From NCBI GenBank assembly GCA_937872925.1, contig CALMUT010000067.1, positions 1 through 64,000 on the forward strand: a stretch of 64,000 nt of DNA, read 5' to 3'. Position numbers and translations under genes: made by a program. Shown here piece after piece: positions 10,630-31,830 of the stretch (the first letter of the stretch is position 1; every line of letters begins with the position of its first letter). The DNA is from an uncultured Myxococcales bacterium. GTDB taxonomy: Bacteria; Myxococcota_A; Polyangia; Polyangiales; Polyangiaceae. A model generated the notes under the pieces. That model was not told where the DNA came from. It did not search any database and worked only from the letters and a program-made list of their open reading frames with translations.

Positions 10630-11574
10630 TTATCGCTCGGAACGCCGGCTCACGTTGACGAGCACGGCTCCGCCGACACTGAGCATGGCTGTGAAGTGCG
10701 GCAGCTCAAGGTTCAGCGGGCTGCCGTAGGTTTGAGGACGCATGCGGTAGCGACCGGCGAGACCGAACCACAAAGCGTAGTCGCTGACATATAGTGCGCC
10801 TACCCCGCCGACTTCAGCGACGCCGCTGGCGATGGCGGAATCGGCAGCCGTACCGTTCACGGAGAACCAATCGACACCAATCAGTGCCTTGGCGCCGACG
10901 TTGTGGCGTGCGTCGTAGGGCGCGCCCCATCCTACTCCCACGCCGACATCGTAGCCGAAGGTCGGACCGCGTGGCGCAGATCCAATCCGCGCACTTTCGC
11001 TGAGCACAATGCTCAGCAGCCCCAAACCGACGCCGACGTCGAAGCGACCGCCCAAGGGAGGCGACAGTGGTTCAGGCAATAGCTCGATGGATGCACCGAG
11101 GCTCAGACCGCCATGGGTGAACTGACGGACGGTCTGCGGCGCAGGCCCAGCGGTCTGCGGCGACGATTCCGGGATCGGTTCTGGCGCTGTCGGCGATGCT
11201 GGGTTCGGCGTGGGCTCCGCGTTTGCTTCGGGTGCTTTCCCTTGGCGCAGCCGCGCCTCGATGGCTTCGAGCACTGATTCGATGAACTGCGGCCCAGGCG
11301 CGACTTTCAACAGCTCCGCCGGCGGCACGTCCCAGATCACCCACGCCCGGCTGTCGTCGCAGGCCACGACCACACTTCGAGGCAACTCGGTCTGGGCGCT
11401 TTGGGCACTGAGGGTCAACGCGATGCGAGATGCCAGCTCATCTGCTTGCTCCGCGCTGACCTGGGCGCAGGTCGTTTGCACCAGGGGAGCTTTCCGCGGC
11501 GACGGCTGCGCGCTGGCAACCAAGGCTGGGCCCAGGGCGCCGACAAACCCCAAGATCGCCGCTGAACTTCGCAT
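10630..11574 (-). CDS. Secreted protein with Pro-rich linker and beta-rich (barrel-like) domain
   Basis: The ATG at 11574 gives 314 residues with a signal peptide (RSSAAILGFVGALGPALVASA). A domain of about 100 residues with two Cys (TTCAQ, VVACDD) follows, then a Pro/Ala/Glu-rich linker (about 125-160), then about 150 residues of alternating Gly/hydrophobic strands resembling an outer membrane barrel. No named family is recognised. It is transcribed divergently from an ECF sigma gene across 71 bp containing a dyad. A protein with the same plan lies next to the second ECF sigma gene at 25919, so it may be a target or sensor of the sigma system (inference). Confidence 0.65.
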   Translation of the reverse strand: MRSSAAILGFVGALGPALVASAQPSPRKAPLVQTTCAQVSAEQADELASRIALTLSAQSAQTELPRSVVVACDDSRAWVIWDVPPAELLKVAPGPQFIESVLEAIEARLRQGKAPEANAEPTPNPASPTAPEPIPESSPQTAGPAPQTVRQFTHGGLSLGASIELLPEPLSPPLGGRFDVGVGLGLLSIVLSESARIGSAPRGPTFGYDVGVGVGWGAPYDARHNVGAKALIGVDWFSVNGTAADSAIASGVAEVGGVGALYVSDYALWFGLAGRYRMRPQTYGSPLNLELPHFTAMLSVGGAVLVNVSRRSER

Positions 11575-11599
11575 CGTCACCTCGAATCCTAGACCGGAC

Positions 11600-11623
11600 C
11601 GATCCTGGGCGCTGTCAGGATCG
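11600..11623. promoter_or_regulatory. Dyad (8-bp arms, 8-bp spacer) between ECF sigma and barrel genes
   Basis: CGATCCTG and CAGGATCG are perfect inverted arms separated by ggcgctgt. The element lies in the divergent promoter region between the barrel-like protein (start 11574) and the ECF sigma gene (start 11646). It could be an operator for both genes. Confidence 0.5.
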
Positions 11624-11645
11624 ACTAACATAGTACGAGAGTTTC

Positions 11646-12269
11646 ATGGCCGAAGAAGGGTTGCTCGTCCCGACTGCGGGAGCACAGGCGGACGCGTTGC
11701 AGCGCACGCTGAGCGACGCGGAGGACCGCGAGCCGTCGGCGCTGGCGGGGACGTCGCTGCCGAGCACAGCAGAGCTGCTCGCATTGCTGTACCGTCAAGT
11801 CGCCGCACTGGCCGGGCCGCGCCAGGATCTGGATGACTTGGTGCAAGCCGCTGCGGAGCGCGTGCTGAAGTCGCTCCACCGCTTCGACGGTCGTTGCTCC
11901 ATGACCACGTGGACGTACACCATCGCATACCGCACCGTCGTTGACAGCGTTCGCTGGAGCACGCGCTTCCGGCGTCGCTTTGTCAGCAGCGAAACCACGG
12001 AACTCGACCGCTGCAGTTCCGACTGGGACTCTGATGCAGCGCTGTTGCAGCTGGAGCGCGCACGACGGCTGCACCGCGTCCTAGACACGTTGCCGCAGAA
12101 GAAGCGTGCCGTCGTCGTACTCGTGGAATTTGAGGGGCTCGCGCTGCGTGAAGTGGCGCAAATCGTCGGGGCGAACGAACGCACCGTGCGGTCACGTCTG
12201 CGGGACGCGCGCAAGAAGCTCGCACAAGAGCTCGCCGCAGACCCGCTATTCGGAGGGAGTCAGCCATGA
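11646..12269 (+). CDS. ECF-type RNA polymerase sigma factor
   Basis: This 207-residue protein has sigma region 2 (DLDDLVQAAAERVLKSLHRF, then CSMTTWTYTIAYRTVVDSVR) and region 4 (LDTLPQKKRAVVVLVEFEGL, then the helix-turn-helix ALREVAQIVGANERTVRSR). Region 1 and most of region 3 are absent, as usual for extracytoplasmic-function sigma factors. The N-terminal 45 residues are extra and unordered. Its stop overlaps the start of the next gene by ATGA at 12266, so sigma and its membrane partner are translationally coupled. It probably controls its own operon and the divergent barrel-like gene. Confidence 0.87.
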   Translation: MAEEGLLVPTAGAQADALQRTLSDAEDREPSALAGTSLPSTAELLALLYRQVAALAGPRQDLDDLVQAAAERVLKSLHRFDGRCSMTTWTYTIAYRTVVDSVRWSTRFRRRFVSSETTELDRCSSDWDSDAALLQLERARRLHRVLDTLPQKKRAVVVLVEFEGLALREVAQIVGANERTVRSRLRDARKKLAQELAADPLFGGSQP

Positions 12270-13015
12270 GCGAGGACCTCTCCATTGCAGAACTGCGCGC
12301 CCTCGACACGGCGCGCGACGTCTGGCCCACCGCGGTGCCCAACGACGCGGACATTGAGGCGGCAGTGCGGCGGCTGCGACCGCGAGTCCGCAGCACGAAG
12401 CGGCGACTGTTGCCGCGGCAACTCGGGCGGCTCTCGGTGATCTTCGTGGTGCTGGGCTTCGGCTTGGCCTGGGCGGCAGGAGGCAAGAGCCAGCTCGCTA
12501 GCTACGTGCATCCGGCGGCGCCTGCGAGGCTGCAGAGTGAGCTCGGCGCTGGCGCGCACGCCGTGGCCCGAAGCGTTGTGCACGCACGCCCCGCCACGGC
12601 GCGCCCCAGTCCCCAGGCGAATTCTGACGAAATAGCGAAGCACCCGGAAGCCTCTAAGGACCCGGCGCTCGCGAAGGTGGCGGCGCCGGCCTCGAGACGG
12701 CGTGTCGCGGGGAAAGCGGCAACAGCCGGCCGCGCAGATGCGATTCCGACGGATCCCGCGCCGGCGTGGAAAAAAGTGCGCGAGGCGCTCGCGATTGGCA
12801 GCGCACACGGTGCAGAGCAAGCGCTCTCTGAACTGACGACACATGCAGAACCAGAGACCCAGCTGAAGGCTCAGCTGGGGCTGGCTCAGCTGGCGCTTTC
12901 CCGGGGCGACTGCAAACGGGCGTCGGCGATCAGCACGCAAATCCTCTCGAAACAAGGCGCGGGCCCGATCCAAAAGCGCGCCCTCGACATCGCCGCGCGC
13001 TGTCACGGGCAGTGA
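12266..13015 (+). CDS. Putative membrane anti-sigma factor with helical C-terminal domain
   Basis: The 249-residue product has a cytosolic N-terminus of about 50 residues (RALDTARDVWPTAVPNDADI), a single membrane helix at about 55-72 (LSVIFVVLGFGLAWAAGG), a Pro/Ala-rich segment, and a C-terminal helical domain (about 160-249) with ALAIGSAHGAEQALSEL and LGLAQLALSRGDCKRASA that looks TPR-like. No zinc-binding ZAS motif is present. The ATGA overlap with the sigma gene and the topology support an anti-sigma role. The TPR-like part may bind a periplasmic partner. Confidence 0.7.
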   Translation: MSEDLSIAELRALDTARDVWPTAVPNDADIEAAVRRLRPRVRSTKRRLLPRQLGRLSVIFVVLGFGLAWAAGGKSQLASYVHPAAPARLQSELGAGAHAVARSVVHARPATARPSPQANSDEIAKHPEASKDPALAKVAAPASRRRVAGKAATAGRADAIPTDPAPAWKKVREALAIGSAHGAEQALSELTTHAEPETQLKAQLGLAQLALSRGDCKRASAISTQILSKQGAGPIQKRALDIAARCHGQ

Positions 13016-13055
13016 TGCTTAGGCGCAATGCGCCGGCGCTGGTACGATTGAGTGC

Positions 13056-14609
13056 ATGTACCGAGTTGTGTTCCTGGGTGTGACCTCCGTATTGCTCACG
13101 TCGTCCCTCACCGCACAGGCGGCCGAATGCGGCTGCGACCACAGCGTTGAAGTCGGCACGACCAACGTGAAGGGAGCGGACCTAGGCGTGCAGCCTGGCG
13201 ACGTGGTGTGTGTGCAGGCAGGGGAGCGTCCGTTTTTGGTCCTGGAAGGCTTCGTCGGCACTGCGGCGGCGCCAGTTGTGATCAAGAACTGCGGCGGCCA
13301 GGTAAAGATCAAGAACGCGGACCGCGGCTACGGACTTTTGATCAACGCCTCGTCGTTCTTTCGACTGACGGGCACGGGCGATCCCGCGTTCGAGTACGGC
13401 TTTGACGTGAGCGCCACTCGCACGGGTCCGGACTACTCGGCTTCCGGGGTGCCGGTCGGGGATCTCAGTACCGACTATGAGCTGGACCACCTCGAAGTGC
13501 ACCACACGGGCTTCGCGGGTTTCTCTTTGAAGACCGAATCCCGCTGCGACGGCAGCGCCAACCTCGGGAATTTCGTACAGAAGAACACCCGAGTGCACCA
13601 CACCTACGTGCACGACACGGGCGGCGAAGGCTTCTACGTCGGCAGCACTGGCTACGGCGGCCGGGATTTTCAATGCAACGGCCAGACCGAGAAGCTCTTT
13701 CCCCACGAACACTGGGGCGTCAACATCAGCGACAATCGCATCGAGAATACTGGCTGGGACGGCCTGCAGATTGGGGTCACTCCCAAGGATTGCGTGGTCA
13801 GTCGCAACGTGATCACTGGCGTTGGCCGAACCGCCTCGGACAAGGTGCAGACCCGAGGCATCCAAATCGGTGGTGCGTCGGTGTGCAACATCACGGACAA
13901 CTATCTGGCGGATGGTCCGACTATCGGCATATTCGTGTTGGGCGCGGGCAGCACGTTGGTGCAAAACAACGTCGTGGTCGACTTTGCGGAGGACGGGATC
14001 TACGGCAACGACCAGCAGAACAACGCCATCGCGGGCGCATCGTACGTGTTCTTGCACAACACCGTAGTGCGCTCCGGGGACACCGGCGTTTCGCTATTCG
14101 GCACGCTCATTCAAGGCAACGCCGTGGTGAACAACTTGTTGGTGGAAAGTGGCGGCAGCGCCCTCGGCGTGGGTGGCAACGTCGATGCAGTGCAGCAGGG
14201 CAATCTCGAGGTTGCCACCACCGGGGAGGCGGGCTTCCAAGACGCAAAGGCCGGCGACTTTCACCTGACGGCTGACTCCGCCGCCCGAGACGTCGGGGAG
14301 CTGGTCAGCGGCTTCAGTACCGAAAAGGACCGAGACGGCGTGACCCGGGACGCAAAGCCAGACGTGGGTGCCTACGAGTACAGCGACGCACCTCCACCCG
14401 ACGGCGGCACTCCGATCGGAACGGGTGGTGGCGGCAACGCGCCGGGCTCGGGAGGCTCCGGCAACTCGGGCAACACTTCGGCCCCAACGAACGCAGACGA
14501 TGCCGGGGGCTGCGGCTGCCGCAGCGTCTCGAGCGCTCCGGCGACTCCCCTTGGCCTGGGATTCTGCGCCCTATTGCTGACGATTTGGCGACGCAGACGC
14601 CGGGCCTAG
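13056..14609 (+). CDS. Secreted right-handed beta-helix protein with MYXO-CTERM-like tail
   Basis: This 517-residue protein has a signal peptide ending near TAQAAECG. Residues about 60-420 contain repeated strand-turn units rich in N, G and V (for example NVVVDFAEDGIYGNDQQNN, NLLVESGGSALGV) typical of pectate-lyase-like parallel beta-helices. A Gly/Ser/Asn-rich linker follows. The tail GGCGCRSVSSAP, a hydrophobic helix and RRRRR fits the MYXO-CTERM signal that directs cell-surface anchoring in Myxococcota. No catalytic residues can be assigned, so binding or degradation of polysaccharide is a guess. It faces a lipoprotein gene, with a GC-rich hairpin between the two stops. Confidence 0.8.
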   Translation: MYRVVFLGVTSVLLTSSLTAQAAECGCDHSVEVGTTNVKGADLGVQPGDVVCVQAGERPFLVLEGFVGTAAAPVVIKNCGGQVKIKNADRGYGLLINASSFFRLTGTGDPAFEYGFDVSATRTGPDYSASGVPVGDLSTDYELDHLEVHHTGFAGFSLKTESRCDGSANLGNFVQKNTRVHHTYVHDTGGEGFYVGSTGYGGRDFQCNGQTEKLFPHEHWGVNISDNRIENTGWDGLQIGVTPKDCVVSRNVITGVGRTASDKVQTRGIQIGGASVCNITDNYLADGPTIGIFVLGAGSTLVQNNVVVDFAEDGIYGNDQQNNAIAGASYVFLHNTVVRSGDTGVSLFGTLIQGNAVVNNLLVESGGSALGVGGNVDAVQQGNLEVATTGEAGFQDAKAGDFHLTADSAARDVGELVSGFSTEKDRDGVTRDAKPDVGAYEYSDAPPPDGGTPIGTGGGGNAPGSGGSGNSGNTSAPTNADDAGGCGCRSVSSAPATPLGLGFCALLLTIWRRRRRA

Positions 14610-14613
14610 AGGT

Positions 14614-14643
14614 CACCCCCCCCCGCAGGACCCGCGGGGGGTG
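14614..14643. terminator. GC-rich hairpin between convergent genes
   Basis: A C-run followed by gc (14619-14626) can pair with gcgggggg (14634-14641) around a 7-base loop, giving a stem of eight G-C pairs between the beta-helix stop at 14609 and the lipoprotein stop at 14668. Its position suits a bidirectional terminator; no T-tract is present. Confidence 0.55.
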
Positions 14644-14667
14644 GCAGCGGCAGACACGGAAAACAAG

Positions 14668-15198
14668 TCATTGGCACACCGGGTTTTCCGGCTCTGTGCG
14701 GCACGTCGCGCCGCCTTCTTGAGTACTGTGGAACTCGCTGCCATCTCGGATGCAGTAGGAGCCGGCTAGCTCGGCGGAACCGAGGCCGAGATCGTCGAAT
14801 AGCTTCGCGCAGGTGAACCCAGATGGACACTCGCAATAGCGCGCGTTCGGATCAGGGCCATCGCAACGACAAGAACAATGAACCGTCTTCGACGCCGGTC
14901 GATCCGTATCCCAACCGCGTATTGGAACGGTCACCTGCAGCCCCGTGGCCGTCTTGCACGCTCCGGTGCCGTCGTCTTGTCCTTGCGGACACCCCACGCG
15001 GCCTTGGAAGTGGTTCACCAAGCACAGCCGGCTCTCGCATTGCACCGAGCGTGTCTCAAGACTGACCTCGTTCATTGAGAAACCAGGAAAGTCAGCGTTG
15101 GCCTCGTCTTCAGGCACACAAGGGTCGCCGACGCCCGCGGTCTTGCCGCACGAACAAACCATTCCAACCGCGAGCGCTAACAGCAGATGCCGCACCAT
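14668..15198 (-). CDS. Cys-rich lipoprotein of unknown function
   Basis: The ATG at 15198 is preceded by GGAGAGG at a good distance, so it is preferred over the GTG at 15216. The 176-residue product has the lipoprotein signal LLLALAVGMVCSC and about 14 further Cys, including CSCRCDGPDPNARYCEC. I do not recognise a named domain. It is exported and probably disulfide-bonded. The gene is monocistronic and convergent with the beta-helix gene. Confidence 0.7.
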   Translation of the reverse strand: MVRHLLLALAVGMVCSCGKTAGVGDPCVPEDEANADFPGFSMNEVSLETRSVQCESRLCLVNHFQGRVGCPQGQDDGTGACKTATGLQVTVPIRGWDTDRPASKTVHCSCRCDGPDPNARYCECPSGFTCAKLFDDLGLGSAELAGSYCIRDGSEFHSTQEGGATCRTEPENPVCQ

Positions 15199-15339
15199 TC
15201 GAAAACCTCTCCGCACGCCTGATGCGGCGTCCTTCTAAGTTAGTCGTCCGGACTTCGCACTTTGAGCGGTGCGCGATCGGATTCGAAGCAGGTGCACGCA
15301 GAAGCAGCGGCGCTCGGCGACGCTATGCGGCCGCTTGTA

Positions 15340-15534
15340 TCAGTGAGGCTGCTTCTTTTTGCCACCACTCTTGGGCGGTGGCGCTTTCTTGGACGGCTTC
15401 TTCTTCTTCTGCCCTTGGCAGTGCGGGCAGTCGCACTTGCCGCCGCCGCACAGGGGCTCGGCCGCGCCAGCGGGGTTGCTCGCAAGCAAGAACGCGGTGG
15501 CGGCGGCGACGAACGCAGAACGCAAAGAGAACAT
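15340..15534 (-). CDS. Small exported Lys-rich protein with CxC-CxxC motif
   Basis: The ATG at 15534 gives 64 residues: a signal peptide (MFSLRSAFVAAATAFLL ending near AGAA), then CGGGKCDCPHC, then a tail of KKKK, PSKKAPPPK and GGKKKQ blocks. The Cys cluster could bind metal or form disulfides, and the basic tail could bind nucleic acid, lipopolysaccharide or acidic polymer. No family is recognised and the ribosome binding site is weak, so the gene call rests on the signal peptide and composition. Confidence 0.5.
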   Translation of the reverse strand: MFSLRSAFVAAATAFLLASNPAGAAEPLCGGGKCDCPHCQGQKKKKPSKKAPPPKSGGKKKQPH

Positions 15535-15653
15535 GTCGGCGAATCTGCCGCAGCGCCCGGGGCCGGCCAACGACCCCCATCATCTGCGACAAATTGCCGC
15601 ACATCGCCGCTTTCACGGCGCCGCCAGCCACTCAAAAAACTTTCGCCATAAAC

Positions 15654-15680
15654 TAGACAGGTTTTCAGTACTGGTAATAT
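15654..15680 (+). promoter_or_regulatory. Candidate near-leaderless promoter with CAGTACTG palindrome
   Basis: TAGACA at 15654-15659 and TAATAT at 15675-15680 are spaced 15 bp apart, 9 bp before the ATG at 15690. The 8-bp palindrome CAGTACTG at 15666-15673 lies between them. If used, transcription would start almost at the ATG of the winged-helix gene, which may bind the palindrome itself. Confidence 0.35.
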
Positions 15681-15689
15681 GAGTAGTTC

Positions 15690-16088
15690 ATGACACTTCG
15701 TGACCAAGAAATCCTCGTATTGACCGCATTTTCCGAGCTAGCCCAGCAAGACCGGGCCGCAACCCGAACCGCGCTGAGCCTGGCAACGGGTCTGGCCCCG
15801 GCGGATCTGTCGAGCTGCCTGCGGCGCCTCGACGCCCTCGGCCTCGTCGACCTGCGGCGACTACGACTCACGCTGTCCGGACTTTGCGTTGGGGTGAGCG
15901 CCGCGACGCGCTCTAGGCCGCAGCCGGTGCGCCAAAAGCTCCAGCCAGTGACGCGAGTCAGGCGCCAGCGCGCCGCGACATCGGTAGGCGACCGCGCTGG
16001 ATGGACGCAGGGCCGGCGTCCAGTTCGTCGAGCAGCTGTCTCCAGCTCACGCCATTGTCGACCCCAAGCACCTTCGCGAGTTCTTTGA
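15690..16088 (+). CDS. Small winged-helix (MarR-like) protein
   Basis: Residues 1-75 look like a winged helix-turn-helix: MTLRDQEILVLTAFSEL (helix 1), TRTALSLATGLAPADLSSCL (HTH), RRLDALGLVDLRRLRLTLSG (wing). The remaining 55 residues are Arg-rich and low in order, and they overlap the tail of the opposite-strand TerB-like gene by 131 bp. Either the genes really overlap or the original stop was lost by a frameshift near residue 75-85. It is probably a transcription regulator, perhaps of itself. The N-terminal part is well supported, the C-terminal end less so. Confidence 0.6.
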   Translation: MTLRDQEILVLTAFSELAQQDRAATRTALSLATGLAPADLSSCLRRLDALGLVDLRRLRLTLSGLCVGVSAATRSRPQPVRQKLQPVTRVRRQRAATSVGDRAGWTQGRRPVRRAAVSSSRHCRPQAPSRVL

Positions 16089-16485
16089 GGGCGGCGACTT
16101 CTTCCGGCACCACCGCGTTGGGTGCGTCCAAAGCGTGTTCGGTGGCACGCGCAACCGCTTCGGCATGGGCAAGTAGCTCGTGCAGCTCTTCAGGATGAAT
16201 GAGCGGCTCCCCCTCTTCGGTCTGAGCCAACAGGAACAGCTCCTGCAGGCCAAAGTTGAAGTACTCCCGACTCGGACGCTCGATCAACCAGTTGTCCAAG
16301 ATCGCCAGACCGCGCGTACCCAGGTGGAACTTTTCCTTGGCGATCTCGTCGATGCGCGCGATCTCCACTTCTTCGAGCTTGCCGTCGGCCCAGGCCACGT
16401 ACACCAAGGGCAACAGCATCAGCACACGACAGTTTTCTGGTGTGAAGCCCAAAGTGGCTAGAGATTCTTTGATTTCGGCGTCCAT
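15958..16485 (-). CDS. TerB-like domain protein
   Basis: The ATG at 16485 gives 175 residues. The segment LMLLPLVYVAWADGKLEEVE and the following helices (ARIDEIAKEKFHLG) match TerB/DUF533-type helical domains, in which acidic residues may bind metal. TerB homologues occur in tellurite-resistance and stress modules but also alone, as here. A second helical half (about 90-160) follows. It diverges from the MATE exporter gene across 78 bp. The long upstream open frame to 16881 is antisense to the exporter and is not used. Confidence 0.7.
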   Translation of the reverse strand: MDAEIKESLATLGFTPENCRVLMLLPLVYVAWADGKLEEVEIARIDEIAKEKFHLGTRGLAILDNWLIERPSREYFNFGLQELFLLAQTEEGEPLIHPEELHELLAHAEAVARATEHALDAPNAVVPEEVAALKELAKVLGVDNGVSWRQLLDELDAGPASIQRGRLPMSRRAGA

Positions 16486-16563
16486 TTGCTTCGCTTGGCG
16501 GCGCGAAAGTGTCACCCTCTCGCCCTTCGCTGGCAAGAATAGACCGGTGCTTTCGAGACCACA

Positions 16564-17958
16564 ATGTCCCCGCTGAAGCGTTTGCTCGACTTCCTTCGAC
16601 TCGCGCTTTCCAGCCACGATTACGACTTCACCGCGGGCAGCCTTGTGCGCGGAGTCCTGTTGCTTTCGGTGCCAATGGTGCTGGAACCGATGATGGAGTC
16701 GCTCTTCATGCTGGCGGACGCCTTCTATGTCGGGCGCCTTGGGCCAGACGCGCTCGCTGTGCTCGGGCTCACCGAGGGCTTGGTGGTGTTGGTATTCACC
16801 GTGGGCATGGGCTTGGGCATCCCGGCGACTGCCATGGTGGCGCAGCGCGTCGGCAAGAAGGACAACGAAGGCGCGGCCCAAGCTGCAGCGCAGGCAAACT
16901 GGGTGGCACTTTTCGTCGCATTGCCCCTCGCACTCTTGGGTGGGTACTTTGCGAGCGAAGCCCTAGCGCTGATGGGCGCGAGCGATGACGTACGTGCCAT
17001 GGGCGTGCCCTACGCCACGATCACCCTGGCCTCGACGCCGATCATCGTCCTGCTGTTCGTAAATGCCGCGGTGCTTCGCGGCTCTGGCGACGCAGCTTCG
17101 GCGCTGTGGGCGCTGTGGCTCGCCAATGGCCTCAATATCGTCTTGGACCCGCTGTTTATTTTTGGGCTGGGTCCGGTGCCGCCCCTCGGCGTCACCGGCG
17201 CCGCGGTAGCAACGCTGCTCGGAAGAAGTGTGGGCGTTGTCTACCTGCTGTGGCGGCTGACTCGCAGCTCGCCGCGGCTGCGGGTGGGTCTGCGGCACTT
17301 CGGCATCCGGCCAGCGCTGCTTCGGGAACTGAGCCGCATGGCCGTCGGCGGCATGGGGCAACTCATCGTGGAGACGAGCAGCTGGGTACTGCTCACGCGC
17401 ATCGTCGCACTCAGCGGCAGCGCGGCTGTAGCGGGCTACACCATCGCGCTGCGGTTGCTCTTATTTGCGCTGCTCCCAGCGTGGGGTTTGAGCGGGGCAG
17501 CCGCCACCTTGGTGGGTCAGAATCTCGGCGCGGGGCACGTGTTGCGCGCGCGGCGCGCCGTGCGCGTGACGGGATTTGCGAACGCCGTGTTCTTGGGGAT
17601 CGTGACGCTCTTTTGCGTGCTGCTGCCCGTGCAGATGGTGCGAGTGTTTACCGACGATCCAGTGGCGATACGCCTCGGCGCCGAGGGAGTGCGAGTCGTC
17701 GGCCTGGGCTACGTCTTTTACGCTTGGGGCATGGTGCTGACGCAGGCCCTGAACGGTTCGGGCGACACACGCACCCCGTTTTTCATCAATCTGGTGTGCT
17801 TCTGGGCCTTCAAGCTGCCGCTGGCGTACTTCCTCTCGACGCAGCTGACTGCAACCCACGGCACGCTTGGAGTGTTCATCGCCATCACCATCGCCTACTG
17901 CCTCAACGCGGTGCTCGCTGGCGTCGCGTTCAAGCGCGCGCAGTGGAGTGCGGCGTGA
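16564..17958 (+). CDS. MATE-family multidrug/sodium antiporter
   Basis: The 464-residue protein has about twelve hydrophobic helices in two related halves, as in MATE exporters. Typical segments are LLLSVPMVLEPMMESLFMLA near the start, ATAMVAQRVGKKD in half one and AATLVGQNLGAGHVLRARRA in half two. Family members expel cationic drugs or metabolites using H+ or Na+ gradients. The gene stands alone after a divergent TerB-like gene, with no adjacent regulator, so the substrate is unknown. Confidence 0.9.
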   Translation: MSPLKRLLDFLRLALSSHDYDFTAGSLVRGVLLLSVPMVLEPMMESLFMLADAFYVGRLGPDALAVLGLTEGLVVLVFTVGMGLGIPATAMVAQRVGKKDNEGAAQAAAQANWVALFVALPLALLGGYFASEALALMGASDDVRAMGVPYATITLASTPIIVLLFVNAAVLRGSGDAASALWALWLANGLNIVLDPLFIFGLGPVPPLGVTGAAVATLLGRSVGVVYLLWRLTRSSPRLRVGLRHFGIRPALLRELSRMAVGGMGQLIVETSSWVLLTRIVALSGSAAVAGYTIALRLLLFALLPAWGLSGAAATLVGQNLGAGHVLRARRAVRVTGFANAVFLGIVTLFCVLLPVQMVRVFTDDPVAIRLGAEGVRVVGLGYVFYAWGMVLTQALNGSGDTRTPFFINLVCFWAFKLPLAYFLSTQLTATHGTLGVFIAITIAYCLNAVLAGVAFKRAQWSAA

Positions 17959-18017
17959 TTCTCGCAACTTGACGGCGATCGTTGCGCGGTGGCGACGAAG
18001 CGGCATGCTTTGGGACC

Positions 18018-18242
18018 ATGCGACTCTGGACGATTCTAGTGTGCGTCGGGACTCTAACCGGGGCGAGTGCCTGCAACGCGCCCGGTTACTCGGTGCCTGG
18101 CGGTAGCCAGTCTCCGGCAGAAAAGAAGCCCACCGGAACGGCTGCCAAGAAAGCACCCGCCGAGAAGAAGGCCGAAGCGGATGACGACGCCCCCGCGCCG
18201 CCGCCAGACCTGCCCGGCTACGCGCCCATCAAGTCCAAGTAG
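18018..18242 (+). CDS. Small Lys/Ala/Pro-rich lipoprotein
   Basis: The ATG at 18018 follows GGGA and gives 74 residues with a lipoprotein signal (ILVCVGTLTGASAC). The mature part is low complexity, rich in K, A, E and P (EKKPTGTAAKKAPAEKK, then DDDAPAPPPDLPGY), and probably spans the periplasm or tethers to the wall. Its stop is three bases from the stop of the convergent P450 gene. No family is recognised. Confidence 0.65.
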   Translation: MRLWTILVCVGTLTGASACNAPGYSVPGGSQSPAEKKPTGTAAKKAPAEKKAEADDDAPAPPPDLPGYAPIKSK

Positions 18243-18245
18243 CCG

Positions 18246-20861: not shown

Positions 20862-20945
20862 GCGTGGTCCTGCTCATCCTTTGCTCAGCGGTAGCGCCCG
20901 GGACGCACGGCATGTCGAAGCGACGTTAAATGCTACGCTGCGGCC

Positions 20946-22340
20946 ATGAACTCAGTGCTGCGGCGTGTCCCAGTGGTCCTTGCTTCCGCAGCGCTGCTTG
21001 CGAGCTGCGGGGATTCGGACGAGTCACCCAAGAAGCCCACCTTCCAACCGAGCAGCGTGGTCACCACGCCACGGGCGCCCAATGCGCGAGGCTTCCTGGA
21101 CCGCCGCGGCTTGATCCACGCGCATAGCGTGTACTCACATGACGCTTGCGACGGAGAGCCGCGGGACCCGACCACCGACGCCATCAACGCTCCCTGCCTA
21201 GACGACTTCCGCCGTGGCGTTTGCCAAACGAAGCACGACTTCGTCATGCTCACGGACCACGGCGAGAGCTTTTCGCGCACGGAGTTCCCTGATGTGCTCC
21301 TTTACGACAGCAGCCGAGGCGACACGCTGATCGAGCGCGGAGGCGGACCTGTGGCCAACTGGCTGGCGTGCCCCGACCAAGAGCCCGCATTAGTGCTGGC
21401 CGGGACGGAAAACAAAACCATGCCCGTCGGCCTGGAGGGACACGTTGCTCCAACGGAAGCCGAACGCGACGCCGTCTACGGCCAGAAGACCCCAGAGGCG
21501 ATTCAGAAAGCCCAAGCGCAAGGCGCCGTCACGTTGTTGCAGCACACGGAAGACTGGACCGTGGACGAGCTGTCAACGCTTCCCATCGATGGCTTCGAAA
21601 TGTTCAACCTGCATGCCAATACGTTCTTGGCCTTCGGGGCCGTGTTGGAGTTGGCGGGCAAGTTGACCCAGCCGGAGCTAGTGCCGCATTCGGATCTCGT
21701 CATGCTGCCGATCGTGAGTGAAGACGAGGCTTATCTGAGTCGGTGGGGCAGTGTTTTGGCTCGGGGGGTCAAGCGTGTCGGGACCATGGGCACGGACTGC
21801 CATCGCAACACCTTCCCCGGGCTGTTGCCCGACGGCGAGCGTATCGACAGTTACCGGCGCATGATGATTTGGTTCTCGAACCATCTCTTGGTCCAGCCCA
21901 GCGCGGATGGAGGCTTCGATGACCGCGGACTGAAAGACGCCCTACGCGCGGGTCGGCTATACGGCGTCTTCGAGTTTCTGGGCTATCCGGACGGTTTCGA
22001 CTTCTTCGCAAAGAGCGGCGGCACGACGCACGAAATGGGCGCAGAGCTGAAGCTGTCCGACGGAGTGATGCTGACCGCCAAGGCACCCAAGGTGTTGGGA
22101 GTCTCGAGCGCAGACAAACAGCCCGAAATCCGCACGGTGATCTGGCGCGCCAAAGACGGAGGCTGGGACGAGGTTGCTAGCGGCACGGACACGGCAAGTC
22201 TTGACGTTGATCAGCCCGGCGCCTACCGCGTGGAGGTGCGCATGAAGCCCTGGCACCTAGAGCGCCATCTTTCGAGCTACGCGGAGCTGGCGAAAAAAGA
22301 GGTCGTGTGGATCTACGCCAACCCGATCTACGTCCGTTGA
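20946..22340 (+). CDS. PHP-domain lipoprotein, putative metallo-phosphoesterase
   Basis: This 464-residue protein has a lipoprotein signal (LASAALLASC). It carries PHP metal-binding motifs: GLIHAHSVYSHDAC (motif 1 H-x-H), MLTDHGES (motif 2), LLQHTEDW, and MGTDCHRN (late D-x-H). Residues about 360-464 form a separate beta-sandwich-like part. PHP enzymes hydrolyse phosphoesters with two or three metals; an exported lipoprotein form is common in myxobacteria and its substrate is unknown. The next gene, arfB, starts 16 bp downstream. Confidence 0.8.
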   Translation: MNSVLRRVPVVLASAALLASCGDSDESPKKPTFQPSSVVTTPRAPNARGFLDRRGLIHAHSVYSHDACDGEPRDPTTDAINAPCLDDFRRGVCQTKHDFVMLTDHGESFSRTEFPDVLLYDSSRGDTLIERGGGPVANWLACPDQEPALVLAGTENKTMPVGLEGHVAPTEAERDAVYGQKTPEAIQKAQAQGAVTLLQHTEDWTVDELSTLPIDGFEMFNLHANTFLAFGAVLELAGKLTQPELVPHSDLVMLPIVSEDEAYLSRWGSVLARGVKRVGTMGTDCHRNTFPGLLPDGERIDSYRRMMIWFSNHLLVQPSADGGFDDRGLKDALRAGRLYGVFEFLGYPDGFDFFAKSGGTTHEMGAELKLSDGVMLTAKAPKVLGVSSADKQPEIRTVIWRAKDGGWDEVASGTDTASLDVDQPGAYRVEVRMKPWHLERHLSSYAELAKKEVVWIYANPIYVR

Positions 22341-22355
22341 AGCGGGAGCGAATCG

Positions 22356-22778
22356 ATGAGTGAGGATCTGGAGATCCGCCCCGGCGTTGTCATCCCGGCC
22401 CGGGACCTAAGCTTTCGCGCGCTCCGGGCTTCTGGCCCCGGCGGGCAGAACGTCAACAAAGTCAGCTCCAAGGTGGAGCTGAGCTTCGACCTGAACGCCA
22501 ACACCAGTCTGCGCCCGGAGGTCAAAGCCCGCCTGCGTCGGCAGAACCCCAGCCGCCTGTCGAGCGACGGTGCGCTCGTCATCACCTGCCAAACCACTCG
22601 CAGCCAGCAGCAGAACCTCGAAGAGGCTCGGGGCATTCTCAGCGCGCTCGTCATCACGGCGCTGACGGTGCCAAAGCGTCGCAAACCCACGAAACCGTCC
22701 CGAGCTGCGAAAAGGCGGCGGCTCGACGACAAGCGCAAACAGAGCGATAAGAAGCGCGAGCGCCGCCTCAAAGATTGA
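22356..22778 (+). CDS. arfB: Ribosome-rescue peptidyl-tRNA hydrolase ArfB (YaeJ)
   Basis: The 140-residue protein has the class-I release-factor-like domain with the GGQ motif in SGPGGQNVNKVSSKVEL and a basic C-terminal tail (KRRKPTKPSRAAKRRR and KKRERRLKD). This size and tail are typical of ArfB, whose tail enters the empty mRNA channel of stalled ribosomes while GGQ hydrolyses peptidyl-tRNA. It lacks the stop-codon-reading domains of RF1/RF2. A GGGAG ribosome binding site precedes the ATG. It closely follows the PHP gene and may be cotranscribed. Confidence 0.93.
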   Translation: MSEDLEIRPGVVIPARDLSFRALRASGPGGQNVNKVSSKVELSFDLNANTSLRPEVKARLRRQNPSRLSSDGALVITCQTTRSQQQNLEEARGILSALVITALTVPKRRKPTKPSRAAKRRRLDDKRKQSDKKRERRLKD

Positions 22779-22896
22779 TCAGACTCCGCTCAGGGTTTGC
22801 TCAGGGATTGATAGGGCAAAAGCGGACTTGATCGCTGGCATCTCTCCCCTGGGCGATGCATTCTACGAGTCGACACTTTGCCCCAAGGAGCCGCAA

Positions 22897-24120
22897 ATGA
22901 TTCGAGTCCTCGCACGCACCGCACTTCCCCTTGGTTTGATTGCGTTGATGCCCATGAGCTGCGGAGGCGATGACAGCCGCACCTTCGTCGAAGACACCGG
23001 AGGCACGGGAGGCACCGCGGGGGGCAGCGCCGGAACCGCAGGCACAGGCGGAACCAGTGGCAGCGGCGGCAGCAGCGGCGCAGACGCCAGCGCGGGCACG
23101 GGCGGCGGAGACGCGGGCAAGACGTGCTCGGGGGCGTCGGACTGCGACGACGGGCTGGCCTGCAATGGCGTCGAGACCTGTGAAGGCAATCTATGCAAAG
23201 CCGGCACCAATCTGAAAGACGGCACAGCGTGCGATCTCAGCATCGACGGCGGCGTGGGCGACTCGGGCATCACCTTCAGCTGCGTCTCCGGTGAGTGCCG
23301 CGCCGTTTGCAAAGACGATACAGACTGCGACGACAACGACGTGTGCACGGGCAAAGAGATATGCAACCCGACTACAAAGACCTGCCAGAGCGGCACGCCC
23401 CTTGACTGTGACGACACGAATGACTGCACCACGAACGAGTGCGACGCGGTGAAAGGTTGCTACAACCCGCTGATCGACCAAGACAAGGATGGCCACGCGG
23501 CCACGAGCCTGGGTAGCTGCGGGGACGACTGCAACGACAACGAGAAGACCATCTACAAGGGCGCCCCGGAGTTGTGTGACGGCAAAGACAACGACTGCGA
23601 CGGCAAGGTGGATGGTTCAGAGCCCACTTGGTACGCGGATTGTGACAAGGACGGCTTCGCCCCTGCAGGCGCCACGGCCATCAAGGTCTGCACGAAACCG
23701 ACAACGCCGCCAACCAGCTGTAGCGGTGGCGGCTGGACCGAAAAAGCCCCTGGCCCAGGCACGACGGACTGCTTCGACACCAACGCCGCCGTGCACCCGA
23801 TGACCGCGGCCGAAAGCAATGCGGCCTGGACGAGCAGCGCCATCCCTGGTGCAACCACGGCCGTGGACTTTGACTACAACTGCGATGGCACCGAGGAAAA
23901 GCGCTTTACCAAGAGCTTCGTCCCCACGAACTCCTCATGCGCAAACGTGGTCTCTCCCCCGGGCTGCACCGGGCTCTGCGCACTGGTCTGCACCGGTGCT
24001 GCGGGCTATTCAGGAGCAGTGCCCGCCTGCGGTGACACCGGCACCTACTCGAGCTGTGCCAAGCAGATCCTGGGCTGCAAGCGCGTGATCACCACTGCGA
24101 AAGCTCAAGAATGCCGCTGA
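22897..24120 (+). CDS. Cys-rich lipoprotein with MopE-type metal-binding motif
   Basis: The ATG at 22897 has a strong AAGGAG six bases upstream. The 407-residue product has a lipoprotein signal (PLGLIALMPMSC), a Gly/Thr/Ser-rich linker (GGTGGTAGGSAGTAGTGG), then about 20 Cys in EGF-like spacing (SDCDDGLACNGVETC, DTDCDDNDVCTGKEIC). At about 200-260 it carries the MopE-type signature DDCNDNEKTIYKGAPELC followed by CDGKDNDCDGKVD, associated with copper or calcium binding. It is surface-exposed or periplasmic. A precise function is not known. Confidence 0.8.
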   Translation: MIRVLARTALPLGLIALMPMSCGGDDSRTFVEDTGGTGGTAGGSAGTAGTGGTSGSGGSSGADASAGTGGGDAGKTCSGASDCDDGLACNGVETCEGNLCKAGTNLKDGTACDLSIDGGVGDSGITFSCVSGECRAVCKDDTDCDDNDVCTGKEICNPTTKTCQSGTPLDCDDTNDCTTNECDAVKGCYNPLIDQDKDGHAATSLGSCGDDCNDNEKTIYKGAPELCDGKDNDCDGKVDGSEPTWYADCDKDGFAPAGATAIKVCTKPTTPPTSCSGGGWTEKAPGPGTTDCFDTNAAVHPMTAAESNAAWTSSAIPGATTAVDFDYNCDGTEEKRFTKSFVPTNSSCANVVSPPGCTGLCALVCTGAAGYSGAVPACGDTGTYSSCAKQILGCKRVITTAKAQECR

Positions 24121-24154
24121 ACCCCTGCTTGCATGTGAGTGCGGCGTAGTCAGC

Positions 24155-24994
24155 TCATGACGGCAGCGCCGCGTGGGGTTCCACGCGGCGCATGCAATGC
24201 ACGCAGCGCGATGCTTCCGGATGGATGCGCCCAGTGCAGTGCGGGCACGGCACGCGCTCGGGTTCCGCGTCTGAAACGATCCGTGACGCCGCGTCCGAAA
24301 TACGGACTTCGCTCGCCGTGCTCGTAGACTCCGACGCGGCGCCGCCAGATTCCGACGCGGCGCCGCCAGACTCCGCCAGCAGCGAGTGGTCGCCGTTTTC
24401 GCGCGCGTCCTTCGCCGCGTCATCCGTCTCGGACACCTGCTGCTCGGTTGTGATGGCAATGGCTTGCACGCGACTGGCCGCTTCGGCGGTCCAGGGCTCG
24501 GGGATGGTGCTTGTCGGCCCACTCAAGAATGCGTTGGCCTGTGACGCGCTGGGTTCCTCGTTTGGGTACGCATCCGGCGCAGACGACCCGGTGTCCGGCA
24601 GACTGGAACCGACTGCTGGCGGCCCGTCGGCCACAGGCGCAGCCACTAGCGACGCTTCGCTGCCCGCGGGTTGCGCCGCAGTTGCCCGCGCCGCGCGCGC
24701 CTTCTTTGGACGGGCCAGCGCGTCGAGCTTCGCTTCGACGTCCAGAATGCTTGGCAGGAAGCGTGCAACGGCACTGTGGAACATGCCGCTGCCCCACACC
24801 AGCGCGCCGAACAAGAGCACCGCCAGAGAGATCAGGCTGAATCCGATGCGATCGTCCGAGCGGCGCAGATTCAGAGCGACCAGGACGCCGAGGATGGATC
24901 CAACCATCACCGTAGCGCCGATGATGCGCACCACCAGTCCCGCAGTCTTCAGTTTGCGCGCATAGCGCAGGCGTTCGTCATTCGGGTCGACCAT
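24155..24994 (-). CDS. Two-helix membrane protein with C-terminal zinc ribbon
   Basis: The ATG at 24994 gives 279 residues. Two membrane helices lie at about 18-40 and 50-72 (VVRIIGATVMVGSILGVLVA; ISLAVLLFGALVWGSGMF). A long Ala/Ser/Glu/Pro-rich linker follows, including repeats of ESGGAAS. It ends in a zinc ribbon, CPHCTGRIHPEASRCVHC. The order helices-then-ribbon places the ribbon in the cytosol or at the membrane surface. The gene is divergent from a Cys-rich lipoprotein. No named function. Confidence 0.65.
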   Translation of the reverse strand: MVDPNDERLRYARKLKTAGLVVRIIGATVMVGSILGVLVALNLRRSDDRIGFSLISLAVLLFGALVWGSGMFHSAVARFLPSILDVEAKLDALARPKKARAARATAAQPAGSEASLVAAPVADGPPAVGSSLPDTGSSAPDAYPNEEPSASQANAFLSGPTSTIPEPWTAEAASRVQAIAITTEQQVSETDDAAKDARENGDHSLLAESGGAASESGGAASESTSTASEVRISDAASRIVSDAEPERVPCPHCTGRIHPEASRCVHCMRRVEPHAALPS

Positions 24995-25158
24995 GGCTGT
25001 CCGGGCGGAGGAGCGGCGGGGCTTCAGGCTAACACCGCCAGACCGAGCGTGGGGCACGTGGGGAGCGACCCCCGACTGAGATGCTGGCAGCCATGGCGAA
25101 GGTTCCGTCCACTGCGGGCACTCACAAAGGTCTGGCTGGCGTGGCAAGGAGTAAGCGC

Positions 25159-25860
25159 GTGAAAAGAATCATATTTCCATGGTTGGCCCTCGCGTGCCTG
25201 ATCGCTGCGTGCAGCGGCAGCACCGAGGATGGGGGCAGCTCCGGTGGGGCGGCAGGCGTGGGCAACAGCGCGGGAGCGGCGGCCGCAGGCGGTTCCGCAG
25301 GCAGCGGCGCCGCTGCGGGGAGCTCCGGGGCGCCCGCGGGCGGCAACGCCGGCACGAGCAGCGGCGGTAGCGCAGGAGCATCGGGCGGCAGCGCCGGAGC
25401 GTCGAGCGGAGGCAGCGCAGGAGTCGGTGGCGCGGGCGGCGCGAGTACCGGCGGCACGGGCGGCGCGAGTACCGGCGGCACGGGCGGCGCGCCCACGCCA
25501 TGCGTTGGCGGCTGCGAGTGCAACGGACAGAACTGCAACTACGAGTGTGGCGCCGGCTGCACTGACATCAAGTGCAGCGCCGCCACGTGCAGCGCTGACT
25601 GCAAACCGGGCAAGTGTAATCTCGATTGCGACGTGCAGAGCACGTGCAACTTCGGGTGCAGCGGGGGCGGATGCGCCTTTGATTGTGACGTAGCGTCCAA
25701 CTGCACGCTGAACTGCCAGGGCGGCGGCTGCGACGTCACCTGCGACGCCGGGTCCACCTGCAACGTGGTCTGCGGCGGCAGCGCGCCGTGCACCGTTACC
25801 TGCGAAGCCGGCGGAAAGCTCGCAAGCTGCAGCGGCAACTGCATCAAGAAGGGATGCTAG
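25159..25860 (+). CDS. Cys-rich lipoprotein with 19-residue repeats
   Basis: The start is a GTG at 25159 preceded by AAGGAG with 8-base spacing. It gives 233 residues with lipoprotein signal FPWLALACLIAAC. Residues about 25-115 are Gly/Ala/Ser low complexity (GGSAGASGGSAGASSGGSAG). The C-terminal 115 residues contain about 28 Cys. From CNLDCDVQSTCNFGCSGGG on, they follow a period of 19 residues (C-x3-C-x5-C-x3-C-x4) for three and a half turns. I do not recognise this repeat. It may be a small disulfide-ladder solenoid exposed on the cell surface. Confidence 0.75.
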   Translation: MKRIIFPWLALACLIAACSGSTEDGGSSGGAAGVGNSAGAAAAGGSAGSGAAAGSSGAPAGGNAGTSSGGSAGASGGSAGASSGGSAGVGGAGGASTGGTGGASTGGTGGAPTPCVGGCECNGQNCNYECGAGCTDIKCSAATCSADCKPGKCNLDCDVQSTCNFGCSGGGCAFDCDVASNCTLNCQGGGCDVTCDAGSTCNVVCGGSAPCTVTCEAGGKLASCSGNCIKKGC

Positions 25861-25918
25861 GCGAAGTGCATTCCGCTGGCGTGCCCCAGTCGCCGCGCAC
25901 TGATAAGCTGGGAGTCCC

Positions 25919-26914
25919 ATGCCCCGAGCGAACCCGATCCCCAGCTGGGGCCGTTTGGCATTGCTTCTGATGCTAGGCGCGAGTGAAGCCCGTGGCGGGG
26001 AGTGCGCGCCTGCGGTCGTCCTGTCCGGCGACGCGACCCTAGTGAGCGAGCTCGCAACTCTACTGCAGAGCAACGGAGTGGCTACGCAAGCAGCCCCAGA
26101 CTGCCCGGTGGCACAAGCGAAGCTCAGCCTGCGCGCGGGGGAAATCGACTTGGATCTGTCCGATGGTTTTGGCCGCAGCCATTCCAGGACGGTGAGTTCG
26201 ACCAAGACAGCGGCCGCCTTGATCGAATCATGGCTGACGGTCAGCGCAGCCCCCGAAAACCACGCTGCATCGACCACTATCGAGCCACGACCGGATGCGC
26301 CCGCTCCGAACACCACGCCAGCGCCCGCTCCGTCCCCGCCAACGCGCGATGCGCCGGTTCGCGGGGAGTCCGCGCCGACGCACGCGGTGGCGCCGGCCCG
26401 TGCCGCCTTCTTGCTCGAGGCATCTGTCGCCAACGACGGTTCCCTTTGGGGCGCAGCCACCCTGCGCGGCTGCGTGCGGCTGGGCCCGGTCTGCGGTGGC
26501 GGCTTGGTGCGCGGCGCCGAGGACACCCGCGTTGGCGGAGACGCGCCGCGCCATGACAGCGAGCGCATCGCGGCCGACGTGCTACTGACCATCGGGCTCC
26601 CGACTCAACTCGGTAGCGCCACATTCTCCCCTGGCATCGGAGCCGGCTTGAACTGGGTGCACATCACCAGCCGCCTGCCCAGCAAGGTCGAAGCGGGCGC
26701 CATCGTCGACGACGACTCCGCTAGTCCCGCCCTCGAGCTGTTTGCGGATCTATCCTGGCCCATCGCGCAAGGCTTGGCCTTTGACGTGCGGCTTGCGGCG
26801 CAAGCTGCACCGCTGTCCCACACGGACACGTTCTTCGACGAAGGCGTGATCGTCGCGGGCGCGCCTTGGGGTCGGGTGTTCGGGGGGTTCGGCTTGAGCT
26901 ACGGCACCCCATGA
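25919..26914 (+). CDS. Secreted protein with Pro-rich linker and beta-rich domain, next to ECF sigma
   Basis: This 331-residue protein has a signal peptide ending near SEARGGEC, an N-terminal domain of about 95 residues with two Cys (GECAPA, APDCPV), a Pro/Ala-rich linker (about 120-160), and about 170 residues of Gly-rich alternating strands resembling an outer membrane barrel. It ends in the ATGA overlap with the next gene's start at 26911. The plan matches the protein at 10630-11574, which also neighbours an ECF sigma gene. It could be the envelope sensor of the operon (inference). Confidence 0.65.
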   Translation: MPRANPIPSWGRLALLLMLGASEARGGECAPAVVLSGDATLVSELATLLQSNGVATQAAPDCPVAQAKLSLRAGEIDLDLSDGFGRSHSRTVSSTKTAAALIESWLTVSAAPENHAASTTIEPRPDAPAPNTTPAPAPSPPTRDAPVRGESAPTHAVAPARAAFLLEASVANDGSLWGAATLRGCVRLGPVCGGGLVRGAEDTRVGGDAPRHDSERIAADVLLTIGLPTQLGSATFSPGIGAGLNWVHITSRLPSKVEAGAIVDDDSASPALELFADLSWPIAQGLAFDVRLAAQAAPLSHTDTFFDEGVIVAGAPWGRVFGGFGLSYGTP

Positions 26915-27507
26915 AAGCCGCCAAAGTCGTCCCCTTGCGCCGGATTCAGGGCGCCCCCGAAGAGATGGCGGATGCCGCTCTGCTGGCGGCGTGTGCGGTA
27001 GGTGACGCCGCCGCGCTCGGAGCGCTGTTCGACCGGCACCACTCCGCGGTGTATCGATTCGTATCTCGCAGCATCGGGCTACGCGCGGACGAGCTCGATG
27101 ACGTGGTGCAGAGCACGTTCATGCAGGTGTTGACCTCGGCCGGCGCATTCCGCGGCGACTCTTCTGTGCGCACCTGGCTTTTTGGCATTGCGCTCAACAT
27201 CGGCCGCCACCACATACGCGGGGAGGTGCGACGCCGCGCCGCTTTAGCCAGCGCACGCGAGCGTCCCACTGGCAGCGCACGCACCCCCCACGAACAAGTT
27301 GCGCAACAGGAACAACTGCGCATTCTCGAGCGTGCCCTTGAGTCGCTACCCACAGAGCAACGCGTCGCCTTCGTCATGTGCGATCTGGAGCAAGTGCGCG
27401 GCGTAGACGCGGCGCAGACCTTGGGAGTGCGCGAAGGCACACTGTACCGGCGGCTGCATGACGCGCGCCGGACGCTACGTGCGGCGCTGCAGGGAGAGCG
27501 CTCATGA
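26911..27507 (+). CDS. ECF-type RNA polymerase sigma factor
   Basis: The ATG at 26911 overlaps the stop of the upstream gene. The 198-residue product has region 2 (YRFVSRSIGLRADELDDVVQ, then RGDSSVRTWLFGIALNIGRH) and region 4 (LESLPTEQRVAFVMCDLEQV, helix-turn-helix VDAAQTLGVREGTLYRRLHD). It is typical of ECF sigma factors. Its own stop overlaps the next ATG at 27504, so three proteins are translated in a chain: barrel-like protein, sigma, anti-sigma. Confidence 0.88.
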   Translation: MKAAKVVPLRRIQGAPEEMADAALLAACAVGDAAALGALFDRHHSAVYRFVSRSIGLRADELDDVVQSTFMQVLTSAGAFRGDSSVRTWLFGIALNIGRHHIRGEVRRRAALASARERPTGSARTPHEQVAQQEQLRILERALESLPTEQRVAFVMCDLEQVRGVDAAQTLGVREGTLYRRLHDARRTLRAALQGERS

Positions 27508-28760
27508 CGACTGCACCCTGCCCCTTCGAGTCAGAAGCGATGCGCCTGGGCGCCCACGAACTCGGACCCGAGCTGCAAGCACACGCGGAAGCATGCGCGC
27601 GCTGCGCGGCGCATGTCGAAGCGAACCGGGAGCTGAGCGAGCTGGCGTCACGGCTGCCTTGGGACGCCCCGGCTCCCGATCGAGTGGAGCAGCTCCGGAC
27701 CAAGCTGCTGGCCGAAGCACCGCGAGGGAAGCTCCAGGTTCCAAGCCCCGAGCCTAGTCCGCGGACGACCCGACGCCGGGCATACCTTGGAGCACTAACA
27801 GCGGCTGCCGCAGTCATGCTGCTGTGGTTCGGCCTGCGTGGACGGCCGGCGGCAAGTGCCGGAGTGCCGCGCGTCGCGCTGCGGCCTGCCGCCGGTGCGG
27901 TCTATACGGACCTCGACACGAGTCCGGACCGCATCGTCCGGCTCACAGAAGGTTCTCTGCTGATTGAGGTCGAAAAGCTCAACCCCGAGCAACGCGTACG
28001 CGTGGTCACTGGAGATGCCGAAGTCGAGGTACGCGGCACGTCCTTCGACGTCGTCGCGGCGAAGGATCGCCTGGTGTCGGTGTGGGTGCTGCACGGCAAA
28101 GTCGAGGTGCGTCCGCGGCAGGCGGCGCCGGTGCTTCTGGCTCAGGGCGATCGCTGGGAGGCAGTGCCAGAGACAGCAAAGGCACCTGCAACGATCGGCC
28201 AAGGCGCGACGACGCAGCCGAGTGCGGTTGCCCAACCCGCCATGACTGCGACCGAAGCGGCGCCGCGTCCTGCTCCACCGCATGCCACCAGCGACCAAAG
28301 GACCGCTGCCCGCTCGGTGCCTGCGCGCAGCACGCCGGTGCGGAGCGCGCCGCCCATGGACGACCCTTCCGAAGCGGCCTTTCGTGAGGGCTGGAAAGCG
28401 CTCAAGTCCGGCAACACCAGCGCCGCAGAAAGCGCCTTCGCGCGTGCCGAAAAGGCGCCCACCTCTGCCGTTTCCGAAGACGCTCGCTTCTGGCGCGCGG
28501 TGGCGCTGTCACGGGCTGGGAAGAACTCCGAAGCAGTCGCGGCGTTTCGCGCGTTCATTGCCGCGCACCCGCATTCCGCGCGGCGCGGCGAGGCCTCGAC
28601 GCTGCTGGGCCGCTTGCTCCTGGAGTCGGGGCAGCATGCAGCCGCGCGCGAACGCTTCTTGGACGCACAGCACGACGCGCGCCCAGAAGTGAAACGCGCT
28701 GCCGAAAGTGGGCTTGCGGACAGCAAGGACAGCGCTTCTCAGAACCAGAAACAGAAGTAG
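27504..28760 (+). CDS. Anti-sigma factor with zinc-finger-like, FecR-like and TPR domains
   Basis: The 418-residue protein begins with a short helical part with an anti-sigma zinc-like motif (HAEACARCAAHV, H-x3-C-x2-C). One membrane helix at about 93-111 (AYLGALTAAAAVMLLWFGL) follows. Next comes a FecR-type domain at about 130-230 (RIVRLTEGSLLIEVEKL, VVTGDAEVEVRGTSFDVVAA, LVSVWVLHGKVEV). After a Pro/Ala linker, residues about 285-400 are a TolPal/YbgF-like TPR (FREGWKALKSGNTSAAESAF, EAVAAFRAFIAAHPHS). Such proteins hold the sigma factor and read a periplasmic signal. Confidence 0.85.
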   Translation: MTTAPCPFESEAMRLGAHELGPELQAHAEACARCAAHVEANRELSELASRLPWDAPAPDRVEQLRTKLLAEAPRGKLQVPSPEPSPRTTRRRAYLGALTAAAAVMLLWFGLRGRPAASAGVPRVALRPAAGAVYTDLDTSPDRIVRLTEGSLLIEVEKLNPEQRVRVVTGDAEVEVRGTSFDVVAAKDRLVSVWVLHGKVEVRPRQAAPVLLAQGDRWEAVPETAKAPATIGQGATTQPSAVAQPAMTATEAAPRPAPPHATSDQRTAARSVPARSTPVRSAPPMDDPSEAAFREGWKALKSGNTSAAESAFARAEKAPTSAVSEDARFWRAVALSRAGKNSEAVAAFRAFIAAHPHSARRGEASTLLGRLLLESGQHAAARERFLDAQHDARPEVKRAAESGLADSKDSASQNQKQK

Positions 28761-31723: not shown

Positions 31724-31830
31724 GAAAAAAACGCCCACTCACACTGCGGGCACATCCTGGGTACCCGGAGCGGCGATTTCCTTCGCGAGATCCCTCAGGA
31801 TCGCCCCGGCCTGATGGCGCCAACGAGCGA

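Follow-up and report, generated by a model that had tools for sequence, protein, structure and literature searches.

A recurring module of ECF sigma factor, membrane partner and secreted two-domain protein in Myxococcota as a candidate route from the outer membrane to transcription

Two loci in the window (the whole stretch of 64,000 nucleotides analysed) combine the gene of an ECF sigma factor with that of a membrane partner and that of a secreted third protein, a plan which other sigma loci of the host genome show too. With reasonable but far from full confidence, we take each such module to be a three-protein pathway running from the outer membrane to transcription, in which the third protein would act as sensor or transducer; this proposal is based on the linkage and co-inheritance of the genes, on the domain plan, on fold predictions and on a conserved promoter. 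A sequence-only reading of the two loci had suggested that they repeat one plan, and this plan turned out to be far more general than that.

In module A, the secreted third protein SecA is encoded at positions 10630..11574 of the minus strand (open reading frame and gene call); its likely start is the ATG at 11574, the reading frame also permitting a start at 11631. Along the same strand, SecA consists of a signal peptide (MRSSAAILGFVGALGPALVASA; 11509-11574) and, as delimited in an AlphaFold2 (AF2) model, an N-terminal domain (~11242-11484), a disordered Pro-rich linker (~11119-11241) and an eight-stranded barrel (~10654-11115). The gene is divergent from sigA (11646..12269, plus strand), the likely start codons lying 71 bp apart, and sigA overlaps partA (12266..13015, plus strand) by an ATGA at 12266-12269. 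PartA is a single-pass membrane protein and putative anti-sigma factor, with a cytosolic N-terminus of ~50 aa, a transmembrane segment at ~aa 54-72 and a C-terminal TPR-like domain at aa ~166-249. PartA itself gave zero Pfam matches, and its C-terminal helical repeat was recognised by a weak TPR score in its relatives; an HX3CX2C motif is absent from PartA, as is, according to Pfam, a FecR domain from PartA and its relatives.

Module B lies entirely on the plus strand, where secB (25919..26914), sigB (26911..27507) and partB (27504..28760) are chained in this order by two ATGA overlaps. SecB has an N-terminal domain (~26012-26245, from single-sequence AF2) followed, after a Pro-rich linker, by a beta-rich C-terminal domain (~26405-26911). 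PartB combines a zinc-type anti-sigma N-terminal domain, putatively sigma-binding and marked by an HX3CX2C motif at aa 27-34, with a transmembrane segment, a FecR domain (aa 135-201; Pfam FecR, 5e-9) and a TPR region (aa 294-396; Pfam TPR_16, 7.5e-10). Both sigma factors contain regions 2 and 4 only, as is the rule for ECF proteins (Pfam Sigma70_r4_2 and Sigma70_r2, 8e-14 and 1e-10 for SigA, 4e-12 and 1e-10 for SigB). The open reading frames, the Pfam searches and the single transmembrane segments thus agree with what had been read from the letters, namely a sigma gene overlapping its partner gene by ATGA at both loci, a secreted two-domain protein placed divergently in one and first in the operon in the other, and partners that differ in kind.

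The two third proteins had also been called similar, which holds for their plan and for the topology of the N-terminal domain and fails for their sequence. Neither SecA nor SecB matches a Pfam or NCBIfam family, and neither BLASTP nor profile-profile comparison, applied to the whole proteins and by domain, detected homology between them, so that their likeness is one of plan and N-domain topology. Each family has two invariant cysteines. AF2 models were obtained for SecA from a 12-sequence alignment and for SecB from its single sequence. The SecA model has a mean pLDDT of 82.8 (73-98 over the barrel blocks) and shows an N-terminal domain of beta-alpha-beta-beta-beta-alpha order (mature residues 9-89), a low-confidence linker (~90-130) and eight long strands predicted with high confidence (132-285). 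The single-sequence model of SecB gave the same order of elements for residues 5-82 (pLDDT ~80-95), and nothing usable beyond them; unrelated folds, which would have spoken against a common plan, were thus not what the N-terminal domains displayed.

The barrel-like domain foreseen in the earlier reading was recovered for SecA, whose C-terminal domain is, in the model, an OmpA-class closed barrel of eight strands, an assignment that applies to SecA only. Its matches include NspA (Z 16.7, rmsd 2.6 over 145 residues), OprF (Z 15.7) and OmpA (Z 15.4). Conservation is lowest in the predicted surface loops (0.32-0.51) and higher in the strands (0.57-0.70) and in the periplasmic turns (0.58-0.64), which are well kept and include an invariant GAP motif; the strands also carry six invariant acidic or arginine residues (E142, D157, E171, R174, D187 and R255). 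Since an even number of strands places both termini of SecA in the periplasm, its N-terminal domain would face the periplasmic part of the partner. The barrel filled the match list of SecA, and the N-terminal matches concern SecB, whose domain resembles the DUF330 protein 2iqi (Z 9.0, rmsd 2.5, 80 residues), TolB (Z 8.1) and LptE (Z 8.0); anticodon-binding domains score nearly as well. This likeness is by fold only, no TolB_N, LptE or DUF330 profile of Pfam being matched, and since the fold is a common one it has no bearing on function.

Relatives of both third proteins are regularly found beside ECF sigma genes, as had been asked of them. The systematic genome searches were carried out within Myxococcota, and in the set used the nearest named relative of the host is the MAG Polyangiaceae bacterium ACE_MYX3, of the same genus. 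In 116 related genomes, all full-length relatives of SecA and SecB adjoin a SigA- or SigB-type sigma gene and the matching partner gene. To avoid circularity, the SigA alignment alone was then used as query against named genomes, which yielded 14 loci, ten of them with close SigA relatives (46-67% identity). All ten have a divergent SecA-type protein and have kept a TPR-type partner of the PartA kind, and none of the four distant sigma loci has a SecA-type protein. One of the ten SecA-type proteins, at L097, has diverged beyond the reach of BLAST and was assigned by its two-cysteine N-terminal domain, Pro-rich linker and beta-rich end; at two others the gene is duplicated in tandem, both copies being divergent from one sigma gene (L090, 2974-4742; L098, 2979-4786). 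When 183 genomes of the order were searched with a profile, SecB relatives turned up in five other genomes, with a sigma gene immediately 3′ in 5/5, an ATGA overlap with it in the two new relatives, and HX3CX2C in the partners wherever the sequence covered them.

A third type of protein, larger and of the same plan (founding example at L040), extends the module well beyond these families. It is weakly alike to SecB (single-pair E values of 0.0001-0.004, probability at most 56%) and its relatives occur in 55 of 97 genomes searched within the order, a single genome having as many as 12 matches. An ECF sigma gene was present in the 1.5-kb flanks of 27 of 30 third-type loci, the chance expectation from sigma gene density being ~1.6% per 3 kb; among third-type loci taken across the phylum, a set that overlaps the former, a sigma gene was nearby in 25/30. 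The gene order is mostly fixed as third protein, sigma, partner, with the last two overlapping, and loci from further classes of the phylum have this order too (L198, L199, L201 and L207). If the plan were shared by coincidence, Pro-rich linkers and small barrels being abundant among the common architectures of myxobacteria, this would fit the lack of sequence homology between SecA and SecB, as well as the outcome of a crude screen for the architecture near sigma genes, in which enrichment was not significant (4/156 versus 2/287). The weakness of that screen is mostly due to gene starts and split calls that missed known cases, and the profile-based linkage of 27/30 and 10/10 with fixed order contradicts coincidence, which we regard as highly improbable.

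The host genome, a 9.39-Mb Polyangiaceae-like bin, gave 52 Sigma70 region-2 matches, and about 14 of its ~50 ECF loci appear to bear the module. This figure comprises eight loci with third-type profile matches beside the sigma gene (L036, L037, L040, L043, L048, L051, L052 and L082), modules A and B, and four judged by inspection of their architecture, without profile support (L038, L075, L081 and the first module of L082). For the type represented by this last module, a sigma gene lay within ~4 kb of 11 of 17 relatives, several of the others being on short contigs or weak matches. Two third-type proteins depart from the usual form: that of L075 (3175-4773; 532 aa) has short Gly/Asn-rich, beta-helix-like repeats inserted between the linker and the C-terminal domain, and that of contig G000:C226 (L197, 3635-4531) lies ~2.6 kb from a sigma gene and not adjacent to it.

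The regulation of module A bears on what the third protein does. An ECF-type promoter, GGACCGATCC-N16-CGACTAAC, leads into sigA (11596..11629, plus strand). Seven distinct loci have GACCGATCC-N16-CGACTAA upstream of sigA, with small variations such as CGACCAA, and the spacer is constant at exactly 16 nt though its sequence differs. A perfect match to GGACCGATCC-N16-CGACTAAC occurs once per genome in G000, G001, G014 and G353, in the first three of them at sigA. A variant with three mismatches to the consensus, GCACCGCTCA-N16-CGACTAAC (15239..15272, minus strand), is located 22 bp before a gene for a Cys-rich lipoprotein (14668..15216, minus strand) that lies 1.7 kb downstream of partA and has homologues beside the module in L088, L091 and L089. 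Before the adjacent homologue, G001 and G007 carry a comparable element at this place with the same spacer, and the one in G040 is weaker. From these sites, SigA probably autoregulates and controls the nearby lipoprotein gene as part of its regulon. The lipoprotein family, apparently undescribed, is a general one with members in 102 of the 116 genomes examined from the order, so SigA control would concern this copy only. A regulon search with a 15-nt spacer, the negative control for the 16-nt search, returned noise at control level, and a two-mismatch site at G000:C116 was discarded as a SigA target because it precedes no clear gene. No shared ECF promoter stood out above shuffled sequences in the third-type operons, so that autoregulation is supported for SigA only.

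These data also weigh on the most serious rival explanation, according to which the third protein is an output, that is, an envelope protein controlled by the adjoining sigma factor, with the partner alone sensing as in envelope stress systems of the RseA/DegS type. The divergent position of secA, the SigA-type promoter of the nearby lipoprotein gene and the fact that many outer-membrane proteins are sigma targets would all suit an output. However, the conserved promoter of module A points toward sigA and not toward secA, the third-type operons are without a common ECF-type promoter, and the third gene heads most of these operons, and module B as well, directly upstream of sigma, a place expected for a stoichiometric component. 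We consider the output explanation unlikely, while giving it more weight than any other alternative to a sensor role.

The partners share a transmembrane segment and a C-terminal TPR-like domain, to which PartB and the partners at L081 and L082 add a FecR domain; by analogy with the FecA and FoxA systems, each of them is the likely anti-sigma factor of its sigma. The parts of the module co-diverge (pairwise Mantel r 0.43-0.56, p 0.0005). Genes of one operon co-diverge even without contact, and with sigma and barrel controlled, the distances of N-terminal domain and partner TPR gave r 0.10 (p 0.11), which does not single out this pair. In the pathway that we favour, the third protein would be a small barrel of the OmpA class embedded in the outer membrane, with its TolB-N/LptE-like domain tethered in the periplasm by the disordered Pro-rich linker, and the partner would be a single-pass anti-sigma protein with a TPR end in the periplasm, plus a FecR domain in some cases. 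The periplasmic domain of the third protein would dock on the TPR/FecR part of the partner, and a change at the barrel, be it a ligand or outer-membrane damage, would alter this contact. The partner might then be inactivated, possibly through proteolysis of the kind seen in FecR-type systems, freeing the sigma factor; SigA, once freed, would transcribe its own operon and the neighbouring lipoprotein gene. The same periplasmic domain could instead make the third protein a periplasm-spanning tether or assembly factor, similar to LptE or LpoB, for an envelope machine monitored by the sigma pair, since its fold is that of TolB-N, LptE and DUF330 lipoproteins, which serve envelope assembly. No machine genes recur beside the modules, though, and up to 12 copies per genome suit sensors better than one machine, which leaves this an improbable explanation.

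The proposed pathway is best read as an analogue of FecA-FecR-FecI surface signalling that would operate without TonB, the barrel protein being its likely transducer. FecA uses its N-terminal signalling domain to bind the anti-sigma FecR at the periplasmic end (PMC9249621), and FoxA/FoxR provides a further precedent (PMC11637429). As in these systems, and in FpvA and PupB, an ECF sigma gene is clustered here with the genes of a single-pass, putative anti-sigma protein and of a predicted outer-membrane protein (PMC9249621, PMC11637429); the likeness extends to a barrel, as predicted here, preceded by an N-terminal periplasmic domain, and to the FecR domain of PartB. In contrast, Fec receptors have a plug and a 22-stranded barrel, while the SecA model has eight strands and no plug, and the partners of the modules end in TPR, some of them having no FecR domain. 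Neither SecA, SecB nor the third type matches a TonB receptor in Pfam or NCBIfam, nor was the STN domain matched in Pfam, the best fold matches listed for the SecB N-terminal domain being those to DUF330, TolB and LptE. The missing receptor match, the eight-stranded SecA barrel and the TPR end of the partner place the modules outside TonB-dependent surface signalling.

Other known systems come close in single features. VreA-VreR-VreI (PUMA3) of Pseudomonas aeruginosa likewise has a small third component that is not a TonB receptor, but VreA has STN-like and TolA/TonB-like domains and no barrel (PMC2729926), whereas a barrel and a TolB-N/LptE-like domain are predicted here. SigX of the same species has been proposed to be coupled to the OmpA-class porin OprF, with CfrX and CmpX (reviewed in PMC8999054). 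SecA has the OprF barrel among its closest matches by fold, but the modules are without an OmpA C-terminal domain, no CfrX- or CmpX-like neighbour was noticed, and they include a membrane partner that is a putative anti-sigma factor. The SecB N-terminal domain shares its fold with the TolB N-terminal domain, LptE and DUF330 lipoproteins (Z 8-9), but precedes a linker and a beta-rich domain, where the latter have a propeller or a lipid anchor. A literature search, the 2021 ECF classification apart, retrieved no description of the module, and the third gene may already be listed there as a neighbour.

In myxobacteria-like genomes, ECF sigma factors number in the dozens and their inputs are unknown; if the barrel proteins are sensors, they would be concrete, testable candidate receptors for a large share of them; signalling from outer membrane to gene would then operate with a minimal eight-stranded barrel and no TonB energy. 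A possible generalisation, which we put forward more tentatively than the pathway itself, is that Polyangia and other Myxococcota possess a large and expanded family of surface-signalling systems that do without TonB, with sequence-unrelated small-barrel transducers that carry a tethered TolB-N-like domain, each with its own ECF sigma and TPR anti-sigma factor, which would account for about a quarter of a genome's ECF sigmas. The conserved SigA promoter offers a ready reporter for signal hunting.

Some neighbours of the two loci deserve mention. Converging on partB (the gene with the FecR domain), the minus strand of the window encodes a TonB-receptor-like protein and a lipoprotein at 28827-31738; a tie between this receptor-like gene and module B was considered and dropped, the arrangement not being seen in L062 or L063. 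At 13056-14609 (plus strand), 40 bp after partA, there is a gene for a secreted beta-helix-like protein whose C-terminal tail, rich in Cys and Arg, looks like a MYXO-CTERM sorting signal; this protein was not seen at the other SigA loci. Adjoining secA, the minus strand at 8496-10577 encodes a large secreted protein that has an internal domain as well as numerous CGDG...CDDGN...GDGCS repeats.
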